A DNA stretch of 64,000 nt from Fimbriimonadales bacterium (GTDB lineage: Bacteria; Armatimonadota; Fimbriimonadia; Fimbriimonadales; GBS-DC): the NCBI GenBank assembly GCA_025998675.1, contig AP024673.1, forward strand, positions 1,267,221 to 1,331,220. Direction: 5' to 3'. A program made the position numbers and the translations under genes. Positions 25,548 to 51,976 of the stretch are shown one piece after another. Under the pieces are notes generated by a model that did no database searches, was not told the origin of the DNA, and worked only from the letters and a program-made list of their open reading frames with translations. Positions within the stretch are counted from its first letter, which is position 1; each line of letters starts with the position of its first letter.

Positions 25548-25724
25548 TTATACCAACTGCGCAGTCAAAGTTCGTTAGTTGCCTCGCACGCGCCTGCAGA
25601 GGTGTGCTGTTGCCTGCGCCCCGCTGCTATGGAGTGCTGAAGCGGGAGCTTCAGCATGCGGAAGCTCCGCTTCCGCACTCCATAAACCGCCGATTTACGA
25701 ACGATGACCCGCAGATTGGTATTA
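25548..25724. repeat. MITE-like family A element with core C
   Basis: The left end is TTATACCAACTGCGCAGTCA; the right end is the inverted TGACCCGCAGATTGGTATTA. Core C lies at 25630-25682. The last three bases (TTA, 25722-25724) are the stop codon of the methyltransferase gene read on the minus strand. TA dinucleotides at both ends fit a TA target duplication. Confidence 0.8.
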
Positions 25725-27365
25725 CAAATCCAGCGCGTTCTGCTCGTCGGCGGGTTGCGCCCGCGCCGCCTGCGCCACGCCCATCAACAGCGCCGCGCTG
25801 GGTATCGCAAACCCCTCGCCGCGCAGCAACTGCTCCACCGTGCGTATCTGCAGGCGGGGCAGCGCGATGTCCCCCAGCGGCGTCTTGTAATAGCCCGCCT
25901 GCTCCGCCTCCCGAAGCATCGGCTCCGTCGGCGGCTCCAGCGACACAAACAGCCCCAGCGTCGCCCCCTCGCGCTCCAGCACGCCCCGAAAATCGCGAAT
26001 GTCCTTCACCCCGACCCTGCCGCTCTTGACCTGGATCACCACCTTCTTGGGATGCTCGCGCGGGTTGTCGGTGAAATGGAGCATCCCGTCGATGCCCGTG
26101 TCCGCGCCCTTTTTCTGCTGGTAGGGGAAGGCGCGCGGAATCAGCCCAATCGCCCATCGCTGGAACTCGTCGCGGTCCTGCAGAGCGAGCGCGCGGGCGT
26201 CCTCCACGCTGGTCGGCTCGCCGATAACGCGATAGTCCACGCCCTCCTTGAGGTCGAACATATCGCTGAGGCGGTACTTGATGAGGGCGATGGCTAAGTG
26301 CGTGATGTCAATGCCAATCCAGCGGCGGTTCAGTTTATGCGCGGCGACGATGGCGGTGCCGCAGCCGCAGAACGGGTCTAACACCACCTCGCCCTCGTTG
26401 CTGGAGGCTTGGATGATGCGCTCCAGCAGGGCAAGCGGCTTCTGCGTGGGGTAGCCGAGACGTTCTTTCATCGAGGCGTGTAGGGGCGTAACATCAGTCC
26501 AGATATTCGTGATGATACTACCTTTGCGCTCATTCAGATACCGCTTCAGCGCAGGACGCTTAGTGTAATCTGGAGTACCATCGGGCGTGCGCGGATACCA
26601 GATGCGTCCTTCGTCATGCAGTTTTTGCATCGTTTCACGCGAATACGCCCAACCGTTGGGGTGGGGTTTGTAGCCCATCCATTCGTACATCAGGTTAGGA
26701 CGAGGATTCGGGCTGCGCATATCTGACAGCCTGTATGGTCCGCGTCCATCGTTATCGTCGTAGCGGTAGTTTTTGCGCAAATATTCGGGGTCATAGTCTC
26801 CGAAGAGAGGGAAAAAGCTTGTTCTGTCGGATTTTCCATAGAATAATAGAATATCGGCAACATTAGGAAACTTGTATCGTGCGTCGCTGTGTGCGCTCTG
26901 TCGCTTCCACACAATCTCATTCCGAAAGTTCTTCGCCCCGAAAATCACATCCAGCATCACCTTCAAATAATGACTCGCCGTCGGGTCGCAGTGCAGATAC
27001 AAACTCCCCGTCGGCTTCAGCGCGCGATGCAACTCCACCAAGCGCGGCGCCATCATCACGAGGTACGCCGTGAGGTCGTTGCGCCCCAGGGTGCGCACGA
27101 AGCCCTGCATCAGCTCCGCCAGCGCGGGCAGCGGGCAGGTCTCGCAGAACTCGATGTAGGCGCGTTCGCTCCACTGCCAGGTGTCGGTGAAGGCTTTGAT
27201 TTGTCCCTGTGCGGGTTCGCCCGACTGCTCGCGGAACAGCACATTGTAGTCGCGCTGGCTGTTGAACGGCGGGTCGAGGTATACGAGGTCGACGCTTGCG
27301 TCGCCGATGTGCTGGCGCATCACCTTCAGGTTGTCGCCGTAGTAGAGCGTGTTCCCTGCGCGCAT
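25722..27365 (-). CDS. Beta-class DNA methyltransferase fused to Mrr-type nuclease, copy 1
   Basis: The 547-residue protein carries methyltransferase motif IV (DPPF, 31-34) before motif I (DPFCGCGTA, 330-338), the beta-class order of N6-adenine or N4-cytosine enzymes. The region between (about 156-300) is the target-recognition part. Residues 420-530 form an Mrr-like nuclease domain with Asp426 and Gln-Val-Lys (445-447). One chain may modify and cut, or sense modified DNA. A TACAAT (27376-27381, minus strand) ends 10 bases before the ATG. The stop codon lies in the family A end. It is tandem to copy 2. Confidence 0.9.
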   Translation of the reverse strand: MRAGNTLYYGDNLKVMRQHIGDASVDLVYLDPPFNSQRDYNVLFREQSGEPAQGQIKAFTDTWQWSERAYIEFCETCPLPALAELMQGFVRTLGRNDLTAYLVMMAPRLVELHRALKPTGSLYLHCDPTASHYLKVMLDVIFGAKNFRNEIVWKRQSAHSDARYKFPNVADILLFYGKSDRTSFFPLFGDYDPEYLRKNYRYDDNDGRGPYRLSDMRSPNPRPNLMYEWMGYKPHPNGWAYSRETMQKLHDEGRIWYPRTPDGTPDYTKRPALKRYLNERKGSIITNIWTDVTPLHASMKERLGYPTQKPLALLERIIQASSNEGEVVLDPFCGCGTAIVAAHKLNRRWIGIDITHLAIALIKYRLSDMFDLKEGVDYRVIGEPTSVEDARALALQDRDEFQRWAIGLIPRAFPYQQKKGADTGIDGMLHFTDNPREHPKKVVIQVKSGRVGVKDIRDFRGVLEREGATLGLFVSLEPPTEPMLREAEQAGYYKTPLGDIALPRLQIRTVEQLLRGEGFAIPSAALLMGVAQAARAQPADEQNALDL

Positions 27366-27454
27366 GGCAGTGGGGATTGTACCTGACGGCTTCTCGTGCG
27401 ACGAGGCGTCGTTTGTTTGGAGTGCGGAAGCGGGGCTTCAGCACTCCCCAATTT

Positions 27455-27784
27455 GCCCTCACCCCCAGCCCCTCTCCCGCACGGCGGGCGAGGGGAGCCA
27501 CACGCGTTTTGCCCTCACCCCCAGCCCCTCTCCCGCACGGCGGGCGAGGGGAGCCACGCGCGTTTTACCCTCACCCCCAGCCCCTCTCCCGCACGGCGGG
27601 CGAGGGGAGCCACGCGCGTTTTGCCCTCACCCCCAGCCCCTCTCCCGCACGGCGGGCGAGGGGAATCGTGTGTGCGGCGCGCGATGCGCATCCCCCTCTC
27701 CCGAAGGTTCGGGAGAGGGGGACACAGGAGGTGAGGGCTGCATGCGGCGCTAATTTACGAACGATGACCCGCAGATTGGTATTA
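27455..27784. repeat. Four 56-bp REP-like units plus family A right end
   Basis: GCCCTCACCCCCAGCCCCTC units start at 27455, 27511, 27567 and 27623 (the third begins ACCCTC). Each contains a C/G-rich hairpin (CCCCTCTCCCG...CGGGCGAGGGG). A further CCCCCTCTCCCGAAGG hairpin follows at about 27690-27720, then a family A right end (27753-27784). It lies between the two methyltransferase genes and continues the promoter region of copy 1. Confidence 0.85.
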
Positions 27785-29458
27785 CAAATCCAGCGCGTTC
27801 TGCTCGTCGGCGGGTTGCGCCCGCGCCGCCTGCGCCACGCCCATCAACAGCGCCGCGCTGGGTATCGCAAACCCCTCGCCGCGCAGCAACTGCTCCACCG
27901 TGCGTATCTGCAGGCGGGGCAGCGCGATGTCCCCCAGCGGCGTCTTGTAATAGCCCGCCTGCTCCGCCTCCCGAAGCATCGGCTCCGTCGGCGGCTCCAG
28001 CGACACAAACAGCCCCAGCGTCGCCCCCTCGCGCTCCAGCACGCCCCGAAAATCGCGAATGTCCTTCACCCCGACCCTGCCGCTCTTGACCTGGATCACC
28101 ACCTTCTTGGGATGCTCGCGCGGGTTGTCGGTGAAATGGAGCATCCCGTCGATGCCCGTGTCCGCGCCCTTTTTCTGCTGGTAGGGGAAGGCGCGCGGAA
28201 TCAGCCCAATCGCCCATCGCTGGAACTCGTCGCGGTCCTGCAGAGCGAGCGCGCGGGCGTCCTCCACGCTGGTCGGCTCGCCGATAACGCGATAGTCCAC
28301 GCCCTCCTTGAGGTCGAACATATCGCTGAGGCGGTACTTGATGAGCGCAATCGCCAGATGGGTGATGTCGATGCCGATCCAGCGACGGTTGAGCTTCTGC
28401 GCGGCGACAATAGCAGTGCCGCAGCCGCAGAAAGGGTCCAGCACCACATCGCCCTCGTTGCTGGAGGCGTGAATGATGCGCTCCAGCAGGGCAAGCGGCT
28501 TCTGCGTCGGGTAGCCGAGACGCTCGCGGGCATGCGCGCCGATAGGCTGAATATCCGTGATGACATCCTGAATCGGGTTGCCCGCGCTCATCTCCAGATA
28601 GCGTTTATACTGTGGCACGCGCCCTTTCTTGGGCCAGACGATGTAGCCTGCGGCTTCGAGGGCGTCCAGTTTCTCCTGCACGCTCATCTGCTGGGCGCGC
28701 TCCCTGCCCACCACCTGCTCCACCAGCGGCTGGGGCACTGCCCAGTGCCGACCCACCTGCGTCGGGTCTACCCCCTTCCACGGCATGCCTGAGTCGCCTT
28801 TCGTCGTACCCGCGCCAGTCAGAGTCACCAGGCGATACCTACCGCGCTCGTCCTGAAAGCGATAGAATTTCTCTATGTAGTCGGGGTCGAGTGCCTCATA
28901 GACGCGGTTCCATGTGTAGTCGGGCGTTTTAGAGTAGAACAGCAGCACATCGTGGATAGGTCCCCAGCGTTTTGCGCCGCCGTGCGCGCCCGTCCGCTTC
29001 CACACAATCTCGTTTCGAAAGTTGCGCGCGCCGAAAATCACATCGAGCATCACCTTCAGGTAATGGCTCGCCGTCGGGTCGCAGTGCAGGTACAGGCTGC
29101 CTGTCGGCTTCAGCACGCGATGCAGTTCCACCAATCGCGGCGCCATCATCACGAGGTACGCCGTGAGGTCGTTGCGCCCCAGGGTGCGCACGAAGCCCTG
29201 CATCAGCTCCGCCAGCGCGGGCAGCGGGCAGGTCTCGCAGAACTCGATGTAGGCGCGTTCGCTCCACTGCCAGGTGTCGGTGAAGGCTTTGATTTGTCCC
29301 TGTGCGGGTTCGCCCGACTGCTCGCGGAACAGCACATTGTAGTCGCGCTGGCTGTTGAACGGCGGGTCGAGGTATACGAGGTCGACGCTTGCGTCGCCGA
29401 TGTGCTGGCGCATCACCTTCAGGTTGTCGCCGTAGTAGAGCGTGTTCCCTGCGCGCAT
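27782..29458 (-). CDS. Beta-class DNA methyltransferase fused to Mrr-type nuclease, copy 2
   Basis: The 558-residue paralogue has the same order: DPPF, a variable centre, DPFCGCGTA, then an Mrr-like domain. The first 140 or so and the last 200 or so residues are practically identical to copy 1, but residues about 156-311 differ completely (for example TGAHGGAKRWGPIHDVLLFY) and are 11 residues longer. It probably recognises a different site. Promoter TACAAT and the ATG context are identical to copy 1. The stop codon again falls in a family A end. Confidence 0.9.
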   Translation of the reverse strand: MRAGNTLYYGDNLKVMRQHIGDASVDLVYLDPPFNSQRDYNVLFREQSGEPAQGQIKAFTDTWQWSERAYIEFCETCPLPALAELMQGFVRTLGRNDLTAYLVMMAPRLVELHRVLKPTGSLYLHCDPTASHYLKVMLDVIFGARNFRNEIVWKRTGAHGGAKRWGPIHDVLLFYSKTPDYTWNRVYEALDPDYIEKFYRFQDERGRYRLVTLTGAGTTKGDSGMPWKGVDPTQVGRHWAVPQPLVEQVVGRERAQQMSVQEKLDALEAAGYIVWPKKGRVPQYKRYLEMSAGNPIQDVITDIQPIGAHARERLGYPTQKPLALLERIIHASSNEGDVVLDPFCGCGTAIVAAQKLNRRWIGIDITHLAIALIKYRLSDMFDLKEGVDYRVIGEPTSVEDARALALQDRDEFQRWAIGLIPRAFPYQQKKGADTGIDGMLHFTDNPREHPKKVVIQVKSGRVGVKDIRDFRGVLEREGATLGLFVSLEPPTEPMLREAEQAGYYKTPLGDIALPRLQIRTVEQLLRGEGFAIPSAALLMGVAQAARAQPADEQNALDL

Positions 29459-29547
29459 GGCAGTGGGGATTGTACCTGACGGCTTCTCGTGCGACGAGGC
29501 GTCGTTTGTTTGGAGTGCGGAAGCGGGGCTTCAGCACTCCCCAATTT

Positions 29548-29877
29548 GCCCTCACCCCCAGCCCCTCTCCCGCACGGCGGGCGAGGGGAGCCACACGCGT
29601 TTTGCCCTCACCCCCAGCCCCTCTCCCGCACGGCGGGCGAGGGGAGCCACGCGCGTTTTACCCTCACCCCCAGCCCCTCTCCCGCACGGCGGGCGAGGGG
29701 AGCCACGCGCGTTTTGCCCTCACCCCCAGCCCCTCTCCCGCACGGCGGGCGAGGGGAATCGTGTGTGCGGCGCGCGATGCGCATCCCCCTCTCCCGAAGG
29801 TTCGGGAGAGGGGGACACAGGAGGTGAGGGCTGCATGCGGCGCTAATTTACGAACGATGACCCGCAGATTGGTATAA
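29548..29877. repeat. Second copy of the four 56-bp units plus family A right end
   Basis: Base-for-base repeat of 27455-27784 at an offset of 2093, ending in TTGGTATAAT. The terminal TTGGTATAAT also forms a -10-like TATAAT pointing right. The remaining sequence to 30047 holds only the leader of the PEP-CTERM gene, with a small TCCC/GGGA hairpin just before its AGGAGG. Confidence 0.85.
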
Positions 29878-30844: not shown

Positions 30845-31112
30845 GTGCGCTGTCAGAGTTGTTATACCAATCTGCTGGTCATAGTTCATAAAACGGCGGT
30901 TTATGGAGTGCGGAAACGGAGCTTCCGCATGCTGAAGCTCCCGCTTCAGCACTCCATAGTCGCAGGGTGTGGGCAACAAGCACGCTTCTGCAGGTGTGTG
31001 CGAGGCAATTAACGAACTTTCTGCGGGCGGGGGGAGCCGTACAAGCGTTGCGAGAGACGCTATCCCCCTCTCCCAACCCTTTGGGAGAGGGGGACACAGG
31101 GGGTGAGGGAAA
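30845..31112. repeat. Composite family A element with core C and REP-like D
   Basis: A broken A left end (GTGCGCTGTCAGAGTT) is interrupted by a second complete A left end at 30862. Core C follows (about 30904-30957), then a degenerate A right end (TTAACGAACTTTCTGCG, about 31009) and a REP-like CCCCCTCTCCC hairpin (about 31063-31112). No gene is seen in this gap. Confidence 0.75.
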
Positions 31113-35946: not shown

Positions 35947-35958
35947 GTGAGGCAGGCG

Positions 35959-37128
35959 ATGATTGAAGGTACGGTCAAAATCGTAGGAGGTCGTGAGAAA
36001 AAGCTGCAACACGGCTACCCGTGGGTGCAGCGCGGGGAAATCTCGGAGGTAGCGGGCGCGCCGACGCCCGGCGCACTGGTGCGGATTGTCAACTTCCGCA
36101 ACGAAACGCTCGGCGTTGGCACTTACAACCCCCAGAGCCGCTTCCCCGTGCGCGTGCTGACTACCGAAGACGAACCGATTGACCGCGCGTTCTTCGAGCG
36201 GCGGCTGGAGCATGCCCTGCGCCACCGTGAGCGCGTGGTGCAGGATACGAACGCGATGCGTCTCCTGTTCAGCGAGTCGGACGGGCTGCCCGGACTGATT
36301 GTCGACCAGTACGCCGAGTACCTGGTGGTGCAGGTGCGCACGCTGGGGATGGAGCGACTCAAGGATGTGTGGCTGCCGACTCTGATTGAGCGGCTGGAGC
36401 CGAAGGGGATTATCGAGCGCAGTGAGATGGCGAGCCGTGCGGAGGAGGGTCTGGAGCCGTTCGCGGGCGTTTTGCACGGGGACGCGCCCGAACTCATCGA
36501 GATTGAAGAGAGCGGGCTGGTGTTCCTCGTGCCGACCGACGCGGGGCGCAAGACGGGCTTTTACATTGACCAGCGCGAGAACCGCCGTCGACTGGCGCAG
36601 CAGGTGCGCCCCGGCGAGCGCGTGCTGGACTTGTTTTGCTACACGGGCGCGTTCGCGCTCTACGCCGCGCGCGCGGGCGCCTACGCCCTCGGCGTCGACA
36701 TCCTGCCCGACGCGATTGACCTTGCGGAGGTACACGCGCGGCGCAACGGGCTGGAGGCGCACTGGATTGTCGAAAACGCCTTCGACTGGCTGCCTCAGGC
36801 GATAGAACAGGGCGCGCAGTTCGACTGGATTGTGCTGGACCCGCCCGCGATTGCCAAACGCCACGACCAGAAAGACTCGCTCCGCTGGGCGGTCTGGAAG
36901 CTGGTCTACCACGCGCTACCGCTGCTGGCGGAGGGCGGGCGGATGGTGGTGTGCAGCTGCGCCTACCAGTTGAGCCTGACCGAGATGCTGGACACCGTGC
37001 GCCTGGCGGCGACCGACCGCACCATCCCGCTGTTTGTGGAGGAGATTACCTTCCAGGCGCCCGACCACCCGTACCTGCTCCAGTTCCCAGAAAGCCTCTA
37101 CTTGAAGTGCCTCTGGACGCGGGTTTAA
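35959..37128 (+). CDS. Class I rRNA methyltransferase, RlmI-like (PUA + SAM domain)
   Basis: The 389-residue protein has an N-terminal PUA domain (GREKKLQHGYPWVQRGEI), KTGFYIDQRENR, the SAM motif VLDLFCYTGAFALYAA and the DPPA catalytic motif, as in RlmI (m5C1962 of 23S rRNA). ATG 35959 follows GAGG; GTG 35947 is in frame. The stop codon TAA (37126-37128) is the first three bases of an inserted family B element, yet the protein end looks complete. Confidence 0.92.
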   Translation: MIEGTVKIVGGREKKLQHGYPWVQRGEISEVAGAPTPGALVRIVNFRNETLGVGTYNPQSRFPVRVLTTEDEPIDRAFFERRLEHALRHRERVVQDTNAMRLLFSESDGLPGLIVDQYAEYLVVQVRTLGMERLKDVWLPTLIERLEPKGIIERSEMASRAEEGLEPFAGVLHGDAPELIEIEESGLVFLVPTDAGRKTGFYIDQRENRRRLAQQVRPGERVLDLFCYTGAFALYAARAGAYALGVDILPDAIDLAEVHARRNGLEAHWIVENAFDWLPQAIEQGAQFDWIVLDPPAIAKRHDQKDSLRWAVWKLVYHALPLLAEGGRMVVCSCAYQLSLTEMLDTVRLAATDRTIPLFVEEITFQAPDHPYLLQFPESLYLKCLWTRV

Positions 37129-37284
37129 GTGCCGTTGCGCGAGAATTGCGACATGCACATGCAGCACCGTCTTTATGGAGTGCGGAAGCGGAGCTTCCGC
37201 GAGGCTGAAGCTCCCGCTTCAGCACTCCAAATCACGCGCATGCGCGGACATGGGAGTCGCTAAAATTCACTGCAAAGACACTTA
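37126..37284. repeat. MITE-like family B element with core C, supplying two stop codons
   Basis: The left end is TAAGTGCCGTTGCGCGAGAA; the inverted right end is TTCACTGCAAAGACACTTA. Core C is at about 37172-37229. The outermost TAA is the stop of the + rRNA methyltransferase gene, and the outermost TTA is the stop of the - permease gene. TA at both ends fits a TA target duplication. Confidence 0.85.
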
Positions 37285-37908
37285 GACCTCCACGCGCAGG
37301 GCGGCGGCAGGGGGCATTTTGGCGGCGCGAATGGCGGGCAGGATGGTGGCGACGACCGTCACCACGACGCCGACCGCCATCGACTGCCCCAGCAGCGTGA
37401 GCAGCTCCAGCGGCGTCGCCGCGCTCCACACGCCCCCGCCCAGCCGAAACAGGTTAATCACAAACACCAGCAGCCAGCCCACGAAAAACCCAATCGCCGA
37501 CGCCACAATCCCAAGCAACCCCGCCTCCAGAAAGAAGAGCTTGACCACAAACGAATCGAGCGCGCCCAGACACTTCATCGTACCAATCTCCTTGTAGCGC
37601 TCCGTGACTGCCATCAGCATCGAGTTCGAGATGCCGACGGTGGACATCAGCAAGCTCATCACCACCAGCCATGTCTGGCGCGTGGCGGTCTCAATCGCGG
37701 CGGGGTCGTTGGGGTCTAACGGGGGCGCGTAGAGCGCGGCGGCGCGCACTGCCGTGAAAAAGGCGATCCCCAGCATCACGCCCGCGGCGGTAATCAGCGC
37801 GCGTAGAAAGCGCACGCGAATATTGAGCAGGCTGATTCGAAACGCCACCGAGAGCGGCAGCTGCACCTGCTTGCGAATTGCGCCTGTGTGCCCCTGTTGC
37901 GTACTCAT
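37282..37908 (-). CDS. FtsX-like ABC transporter permease
   Basis: The 208-residue protein, starting at an ATG that overlaps pqqD by 4 bases, has an N-terminal membrane helix, a short loop instead of the usual MacB periplasmic domain, and three C-terminal helices with the FtsX hallmark SMLMAVTERYKEIGTMKCLGA and the end PAIRAAKMPPAAALRVE. No ATPase is in the window. It is last in the tatA-unknown-pqqD-permease operon. Its stop comes from a family B element. Confidence 0.85.
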   Translation of the reverse strand: MSTQQGHTGAIRKQVQLPLSVAFRISLLNIRVRFLRALITAAGVMLGIAFFTAVRAAALYAPPLDPNDPAAIETATRQTWLVVMSLLMSTVGISNSMLMAVTERYKEIGTMKCLGALDSFVVKLFFLEAGLLGIVASAIGFFVGWLLVFVINLFRLGGGVWSAATPLELLTLLGQSMAVGVVVTVVATILPAIRAAKMPPAAALRVEV

Positions 37909-38291
37909 AGTCGTTTCTTCGAGTAGGCGATAAAGCCCCGTCGCGCGAGTGTGTTCAGAAAGGCGAACAGCGACAGCTCCGCCTCGCGCCGCTCCAGCGT
38001 GTATTGCTGCGCGAGGCGTTGCACGATGCTCTCTACCGCGTGCTTGCCGTCGCACATCGCCCACACCGCGCTGCCGATTTCGTCCAGCTCGATTCGATGT
38101 TCGCGGGGCAGCTTGAATATCCTGCTGAACCAGCCGAAAACGCCGCGCGGCTTGAGCGGCACAATCAGCGTGTAGACGCCGTCGGGACGCTGCTCGAAGC
38201 GCACGAGCGCGTTGCGGATGGGATAGAGGCGCAAGACCTGCCGCCGATCGACCTGCGGCGCGGGGCGTTTGAACAATCGCTTCAGCAGCAT
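37905..38291 (-). CDS. PqqD-family peptide-chaperone-like protein
   Basis: The 128-residue protein contains a PqqD-like winged-helix domain in its second half (LDEIGSAVWAMCDGKHAVESIVQRL ... LFAFLNTLARRGFI split over residues 70-122). PqqD domains present RiPP precursor peptides to modifying enzymes. No pqqA, radical-SAM or lanthionine gene is nearby. It sits between an unknown gene and an FtsX-type permease with overlaps on both sides. Confidence 0.8.
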   Translation of the reverse strand: MLLKRLFKRPAPQVDRRQVLRLYPIRNALVRFEQRPDGVYTLIVPLKPRGVFGWFSRIFKLPREHRIELDEIGSAVWAMCDGKHAVESIVQRLAQQYTLERREAELSLFAFLNTLARRGFIAYSKKRL

Positions 38292-51166: not shown

Positions 51167-51835
51167 ATGTCCAGCAACGCTTCGCCGTATGGCTCTGCAA
51201 ACGATAAGCACGCGCTTGAGGCGGCGAAACGCGCCCTTCGCGAGGCGCTCTCGTACCCCGACGCGCTGGATCGGCTCGATACCCTCAAGCAAACGGTTGA
51301 TCAGGTCGACGCCGAGGCGCTGGTGGAGGAATTGCTGTCGTTTCTGTCCGACCCCGATCCGCTGGTGCGCTGTGAAGCGGTGGAGTCGCTGGCAGAGGTC
51401 GCGCGCCCAGAGGTTCAGCTTCACCTCACGGGGCTGGCGATTGCCGACCCTGATTGGCTTGTGCGCGGCTGGGCGCTGGCGGGGCTTGAGGACGCCCCCT
51501 ACTCGTGGGTTAACTCGTTTCTGTGGACGGTGTACCGACGCGATCGGGCGCACTTTGTCAAGATAAGCGCGCTGGGCACGCTTTTGTATCGGGGCGTCCA
51601 GGAGGCGTATCCGCTGCTGGTAAAGTATCTATTCTCGGCGCATTATCGGTTTGTGATACAGGCGGCGAACAGCCTTGCTTACTCTGTGGAGCAGTTGTCG
51701 CCTGACGCCCTTGCGTCCCTGCAGGAGACGCTTCGGGAGCGGCTGGAGGCGTGGCGCTCGGCAGCCGCTGTGGTGGAGGCGCTGGAAAACTGCCGGGCGG
51801 AAGTCGAGGCGCAACTGGCGGGCGGCGACAGTTAA
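51167..51835 (+). CDS. HEAT-repeat protein
   Basis: The 222-residue all-helical protein has HEAT/PBS-lyase-like repeats (SDPDPLVRCEAVESLAEVA, ADPDWLVRGWALAGL). Probably a protein-interaction scaffold; partner unknown. GAGG lies about 10 bases before the ATG. Its TAA stop (51833-51835) is the first three bases of a family B element. Confidence 0.8.
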   Translation: MSSNASPYGSANDKHALEAAKRALREALSYPDALDRLDTLKQTVDQVDAEALVEELLSFLSDPDPLVRCEAVESLAEVARPEVQLHLTGLAIADPDWLVRGWALAGLEDAPYSWVNSFLWTVYRRDRAHFVKISALGTLLYRGVQEAYPLLVKYLFSAHYRFVIQAANSLAYSVEQLSPDALASLQETLRERLEAWRSAAAVVEALENCRAEVEAQLAGGDS

Positions 51836-51976
51836 GTGCCCTTGCGCGAAAATTGCGACATGTGTACGCATGCGGAAGCGGGAGCTTCCGCGCAGGCTGA
51901 AGCTCCCGCTTCGGCACTCCAAATTACGCGCCTGCGCGGGCAGGGAGTCGCTGAACATCTACTGCAAAGGCACTTA
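51833..51976. repeat. MITE-like family B element with core C
   Basis: Left end TAAGTGCCCTTGCGCGAAAA, core C variant in the middle, inverted right end CTGCAAAGGCACTTA. It provides the stop of the HEAT gene and ends 5 bases from the carboxypeptidase stop. Confidence 0.85.

Follow-up and report, generated by a model that had tools for sequence, protein, structure and literature searches.

A MITE-type element in the overlapping stop codons of two convergent genes: stops that very probably pre-date the insertion

In the window, a stretch of 64,000 nucleotides from the genome of a Fimbriimonadales bacterium, a short repeat lies exactly between two convergent genes, and both genes stop at its edges. 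This raises the question whether the element made the stops or entered a site at which the genes already ended. An earlier note, made from the sequence alone, had observed that a TAA at the left edge of the element ends the methyltransferase gene and that a TTA at the right edge ends the FtsX gene. Both are indeed seen in the sequence and in its open reading frames. According to Pfam and NCBIfam the methyltransferase consists of PUA_3 and a SAM methyltransferase domain; its best NCBIfam model is the 23S rRNA m5C1962 methyltransferase, with a score under the cut-off of that model. The open reading frame on the other strand contains the C-terminal domain of FtsX-like permeases, and the true start of this gene is probably the ATG near 37909. 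The coordinates of all relevant features are given in Table 1.

Table 1. Coordinates of the element, its parts and the adjoining genes (numbering of the window).
Feature	Position	Strand	Remarks
MITE-like element with both target TAs	37126..37284	+	159 bp
Element proper, without the duplicated TA	37128..37282	+	Basis: TA common to two abutting copies; outer Y/R vary
Left terminal inverted repeat with target TA	37126..37138	+	TAAGTGCCGTTGC
Right terminal inverted repeat with target TA	37272..37284	-	TAAGTGTCTTTGC on the minus strand
Element end sequence			TAAGTGCCTTTGC; motif expected in a partner transposon of about 1 kb
Target-site TA, left copy	37126..37127		Bases 1-2 of the methyltransferase stop
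Target-site TA, right copy	37283..37284		Bases 1-2 of the FtsX stop, minus strand
Palindromic core	37173..37231	+	TGGAGTGCGGAAGC...GCACTCC
Further copy of the element	51833..51976	+	Left edge coincides with the stop of a HEAT-repeat gene (51167-51835)
RlmI-like 23S rRNA methyltransferase gene	35947..37128	+	393 aa; stop TAA at 37126-37128; reconstructed TAG before the insertion
FtsX-domain ABC permease gene	37282..38064	-	260-aa open reading frame; stop TAA (37284-37282) before and after the insertion

The repeat is a non-autonomous element of the MITE type. It is short, below the limit of about 400 bp for MITEs, carries no transposase gene and has terminal inverted repeats; it is accompanied by a TA duplication, an empty site is found in a relative, and its copies are dispersed. 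In the 2.99-Mb genome, a single contig, 57 matches to the 159-bp element were detected. The end motif was hit 79 times when at most one mismatch was allowed, compared with 3 hits for a control with the reversed pattern. Pairing of the ends recovered 32 full-length copies, 144-172 bp in length with a consensus of 160 bp, whose 13-bp inverted ends show few differences between copies.

The surroundings of these 32 copies define the target site. In 30 of them C or T precedes the left TA, and in 29 the right TA is followed by G or A. Both flanks together conform to Y-TA-R in 27 copies, as against about 13% of the non-coding TAs in the genome (P about 2e-19). Immediately inward of the TA the sequence hardly varies (A on the left, T on the right), whereas the outer bases are variable. 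Hence, the duplication comprises TA and not YTAR. A 4-bp duplication of YTAR is ruled out, since changes in the outer Y and R do not go along with the A/T further in, which is almost fixed, and a 3-bp duplication of TAA/TTA is ruled out because the two sides differ. Two copies, at positions 1435880-1436040 and 1436039-1436198 of the genome, abut head to tail and have one TA in common, as would be expected had one copy of this pair entered the other at its terminal TA. Since the TA is duplicated target and not element sequence, all that the element adds to each stop is its third base.

Removal of the element and one TA in silico joins the genes to CGG GTT TAG on the plus strand and GAG GTC TAA on the minus strand, overlapping in TTAG. 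This empty site already contains TAG and TAA, so both stops pre-existed and overlapped. The earlier note had claimed that the element supplies the stop codons; this has to be corrected, because two of the three bases of each stop belong to the target TA. For the locus at 37126-37284 itself we infer, by reconstruction, the methyltransferase TAG before the insertion and the exact empty site. An element-free allele would read GTTTAGACC if the double stop pre-existed.

We propose the following course of events. A transposase would insert the element at a TA, with a preference for Y-TA-R, and would duplicate this TA. The ancestral site would have been the overlapping tail-to-tail stop TTAG (GTT TAG on the plus strand, GTC TAA on the minus strand). 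As the ends of the element begin with A, the insertion would convert TAR into TAA on both sides, and neither protein would change by a single residue. The unchanged proteins are thus a consequence of two properties: YTAR in the codon frame is a stop, and the element ends begin with A. The insertion would have survived because it was neutral at this spot, rather than because it was needed for gene termination. It is very probable that the element is an IS-derived MITE tolerated at a neutral, self-repairing double-stop target whose stops were already present. We infer the neutrality, and likewise the type of transposase discussed below.

The earlier note had also considered any in-frame insertion of this orientation to be self-terminating. 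This holds, on both strands, for the frame in which the TA occupies codon positions 1-2. It does not hold for the other two frames. Both in the consensus and in the copy at 37126-37284 these stay open for at least 7 codons and for as many as 53, the full length of the element; one plus-strand frame is open through the entire element.

How often copies coincide with stop codons was compared with a background of 862 kb of this genome, present in fetched stretches from which full copies had been removed in silico. Genes were assigned with a home-made gene finder (codon log-odds), and the rates of stop sites are approximate. Six of the 32 copies are located in stop codons and form nine gene ends. 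Three copies are double stops (methyltransferase/FtsX, SBF/glyoxalase and ffh/purK) and three are single stops (the HEAT-repeat gene ending at 51835 of the window, a UvrD-type helicase gene and a dockerin/HAF-repeat gene). All nine gene ends use the frame with the immediate TAA, and for each of them, including Ffh and PurK, the empty site as reconstructed reads TAA or TAG. No well-scoring gene enters the element in another frame at any of the 32 copies. That all nine are in frame 0 results from the target, since a YTAR whose TA fills codon positions 1-2 can only be a stop codon. Stop codons account for 112 of the 690 non-coding YTAR sites (16%), against which the six copies represent no excess (P 0.42). 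Selection for insertion at stops, suggested in the earlier note, is therefore not required, and the genome-wide count of stop-forming copies that it had called for matches the rate at random non-coding YTAR sites. A nominal over-representation is confined to the double-stop class.

For this class, three of the 32 copies (about 0.3 expected) stand against six of the 690 YTAR sites (0.9%), a nominal excess with P 0.0027, or P = 0.03 without the copy at 37126-37284, which had given rise to the test; the test is post hoc, the counts are small, and two of the six background double-stop sites are themselves occupied. Pure neutrality at YTAR does not predict such an excess, which limits the neutral reading. 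A real preference for double stops would be part of a 'stop-safe' strategy, in which a palindromic YTAR target and ends starting with A would serve to colonize convergent gaps of zero length, even that of ffh/purK; the target in the codon frame could be nothing but a stop, which every insertion would rebuild on either strand. We regard this strategy as unlikely. It is unlikely, too, that double-stop insertions are actively favoured or positively selected, for example because a hairpin separates the convergent transcripts. The excess (P about 0.003) would be in line with such a benefit, and the RNA of the whole element is predicted to fold strongly on either strand (z -4.65 and -6.04), so a putative role in separating convergent transcripts is possible. 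However, besides the limits of the count, terminator prediction detected no intrinsic terminator in the element, and a purging of insertions upstream of genes may give the same excess without any benefit. No Rfam family scored above threshold for the element RNA; a known RNA family was dismissed, as only a sub-threshold miRNA match was obtained, which was taken as chance. Very unlikely is a mere coincidence, in which TAs happen to occur at gene ends and the overlap with stops is unrelated to targeting of the element. The frequency of copies in stops of any kind equals the background, as coincidence would have it, but the YTAR preference makes stop codons the sole in-frame target class, and every one of the nine genes reading into the element uses frame 0.

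Insertion into pre-existing stops, the reading that we prefer, can be compared with relatives that lack the element. The nearest named relatives of the genome are Fimbriimonadales or Armatimonadetes MAGs. In the closest one, HOT.MAX.079 (G002/L078; 92% amino-acid identity in the methyltransferase), the same convergent pair is present without the element and reads GCGGGTG-TGA-GTTAGACC. Its FtsX gene ends with the same TAA. Its methyltransferase has the same last residue, but the stop is TGA and the site contains 5 extra bases; in this respect the relative's site is not identical, which is a further limit on the neutral reading. In nearly all close congeners the methyltransferase stops at the same residue with TAG, TGA or TAA. 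For the second double-stop copy, at genome position 1517102 between genes for an SBF-type transporter and a glyoxalase-fold protein, the relative possesses the exact empty TTAG, with 91.5% identity over 600 bases spanning this site. The earlier note was right in that the element has been inserted, and inserted precisely where the genes originally stopped. The comparison with element-free relatives that it had recommended brings out what it had named as a refutation: the same stops are present for FtsX at 37126-37284 and for both genes at 1517102, and the methyltransferase has a TGA at the same residue instead of the same codon. Consequently, although both stop codons form at the edges of the element, it is extremely unlikely that the element created them, having cut short or replaced the original 3' end of either gene or of both, and that termination now depends on it: the protein ends equal those of element-free relatives to the residue, on which ground truncation of the methyltransferase or FtsX was rejected, the empty site already holds TAG and TAA, and the sister locus at 1517102 shows the same double stop without the element in the relative.

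Elements with similar ends (TAAGTGCC..., TTAGGTGCTTCCC...) are also found in relatives, namely at L226 35-173 (G002:C78), at L071 2680-2772 and at L070/L080. Those of L071 and L070/L080 are located directly 3' of the same methyltransferase gene and seem to have arisen by separate insertions at this gene end.

Regarding the origin of the transposase, no gene with these ends was detected in this genome by a search that covered a few transposase families, and no DDE_3 (IS630) transposase was found in it. Loss of the live autonomous partner is common for MITEs. A congener contains an IS630-type element of 1,097 bp (G008:C105, L260 1418-2514) with the ends TAAGTTCCTCAAAT and a TA at both edges. Its ends share TAAGT.CCT (TAAGTKCCT) with those of the MITE, a match confined to the first bases of the ends and too short for proof of homology. 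The transposase of this element is apparently split in two frames. The TA duplication is compatible with IS630/Tc1/mariner and also with IS711-like members of IS5/IS427, and YTAR in 27 of 32 copies corresponds to the IS711 rule. An IS630-like origin is mildly favoured, and an IS5/IS427-like origin is possible. The IS5-type (PF13340) loci fetched from the genus, an incomplete sample, have different ends (CTGAGAGACTG...) and were rejected as partners. Two IS4-like copies in the genome itself were also rejected owing to their different ends. These copies (L227, L228; at 485 kb and 908 kb of the genome) are identical, with a frame of 392 aa and the ends CTTAAAGGGGTAGG, and one of them has an apparent 11-bp direct repeat.

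Among known systems, IS711 from Brucella, a member of the IS5 family, has the target consensus YTAR, of which the central TA is duplicated (PMC2266754). It is likened to the present element by this target rule, and in contrast to it IS711 is autonomous with its own transposase. Elements of the IS630/Tc1/mariner group such as ISY100 insert at TA and duplicate it (PMC2170065); the duplication is alike, but their DDE_3 transposase is missing in this genome. RUP of Streptococcus pneumoniae, Correia/NEMIS and ERIC are small hairpin MITEs with TA ends that are mostly intergenic (PMC2229807). Stops occur in every frame of RUP and of the 155-bp Correia element, whereas the element described here leaves one plus-strand frame open throughout. 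QMITE2 at the 3' end of enhC in Coxiella shifts the stop, so that the protein gains 33 residues in one strain (PMC5896051). In contrast, the element at 37126-37284 leaves both proteins unchanged. In the literature on MITEs at stop codons no description of restored overlapping stops was found. The stop-restoring logic is thus not stated in the literature searched, but it follows directly from the known target rule. The locus provides a clean example, with empty sites, of how TA-targeting MITEs can be harmless inside the stops of important genes. It also calls for caution, as a stop codon located 'inside' a repeat should not be taken to come from that repeat. If the excess of double stops holds, target choice would be linked to genome compaction in a testable manner.

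The core of the element (query positions 48-106) is repeated dozens of times, alone or in tandem and without the ends described here, in the genome of HOT.MAX.079 (loci L061-L064). Within the window, the core (GGAGTGCGGAAGC...GCACTCC) is common to elements with quite different ends (of the TTATACCAA... type) at 25608-25730 and 30856-30978. End and core modules look exchangeable, as in mosaic MITE/REP-like units.

Two further features of the window were recorded. A tandem duplication of about 2.1 kb at 25688-29813 contains two related open reading frames (25722-27365 and 27782-29458), each of which adjoins an array of 56-bp repeats (27396-27720 and 29489-29813). At 506-714, 21-bp tandem repeats within an open reading frame encode a heptad-like motif.
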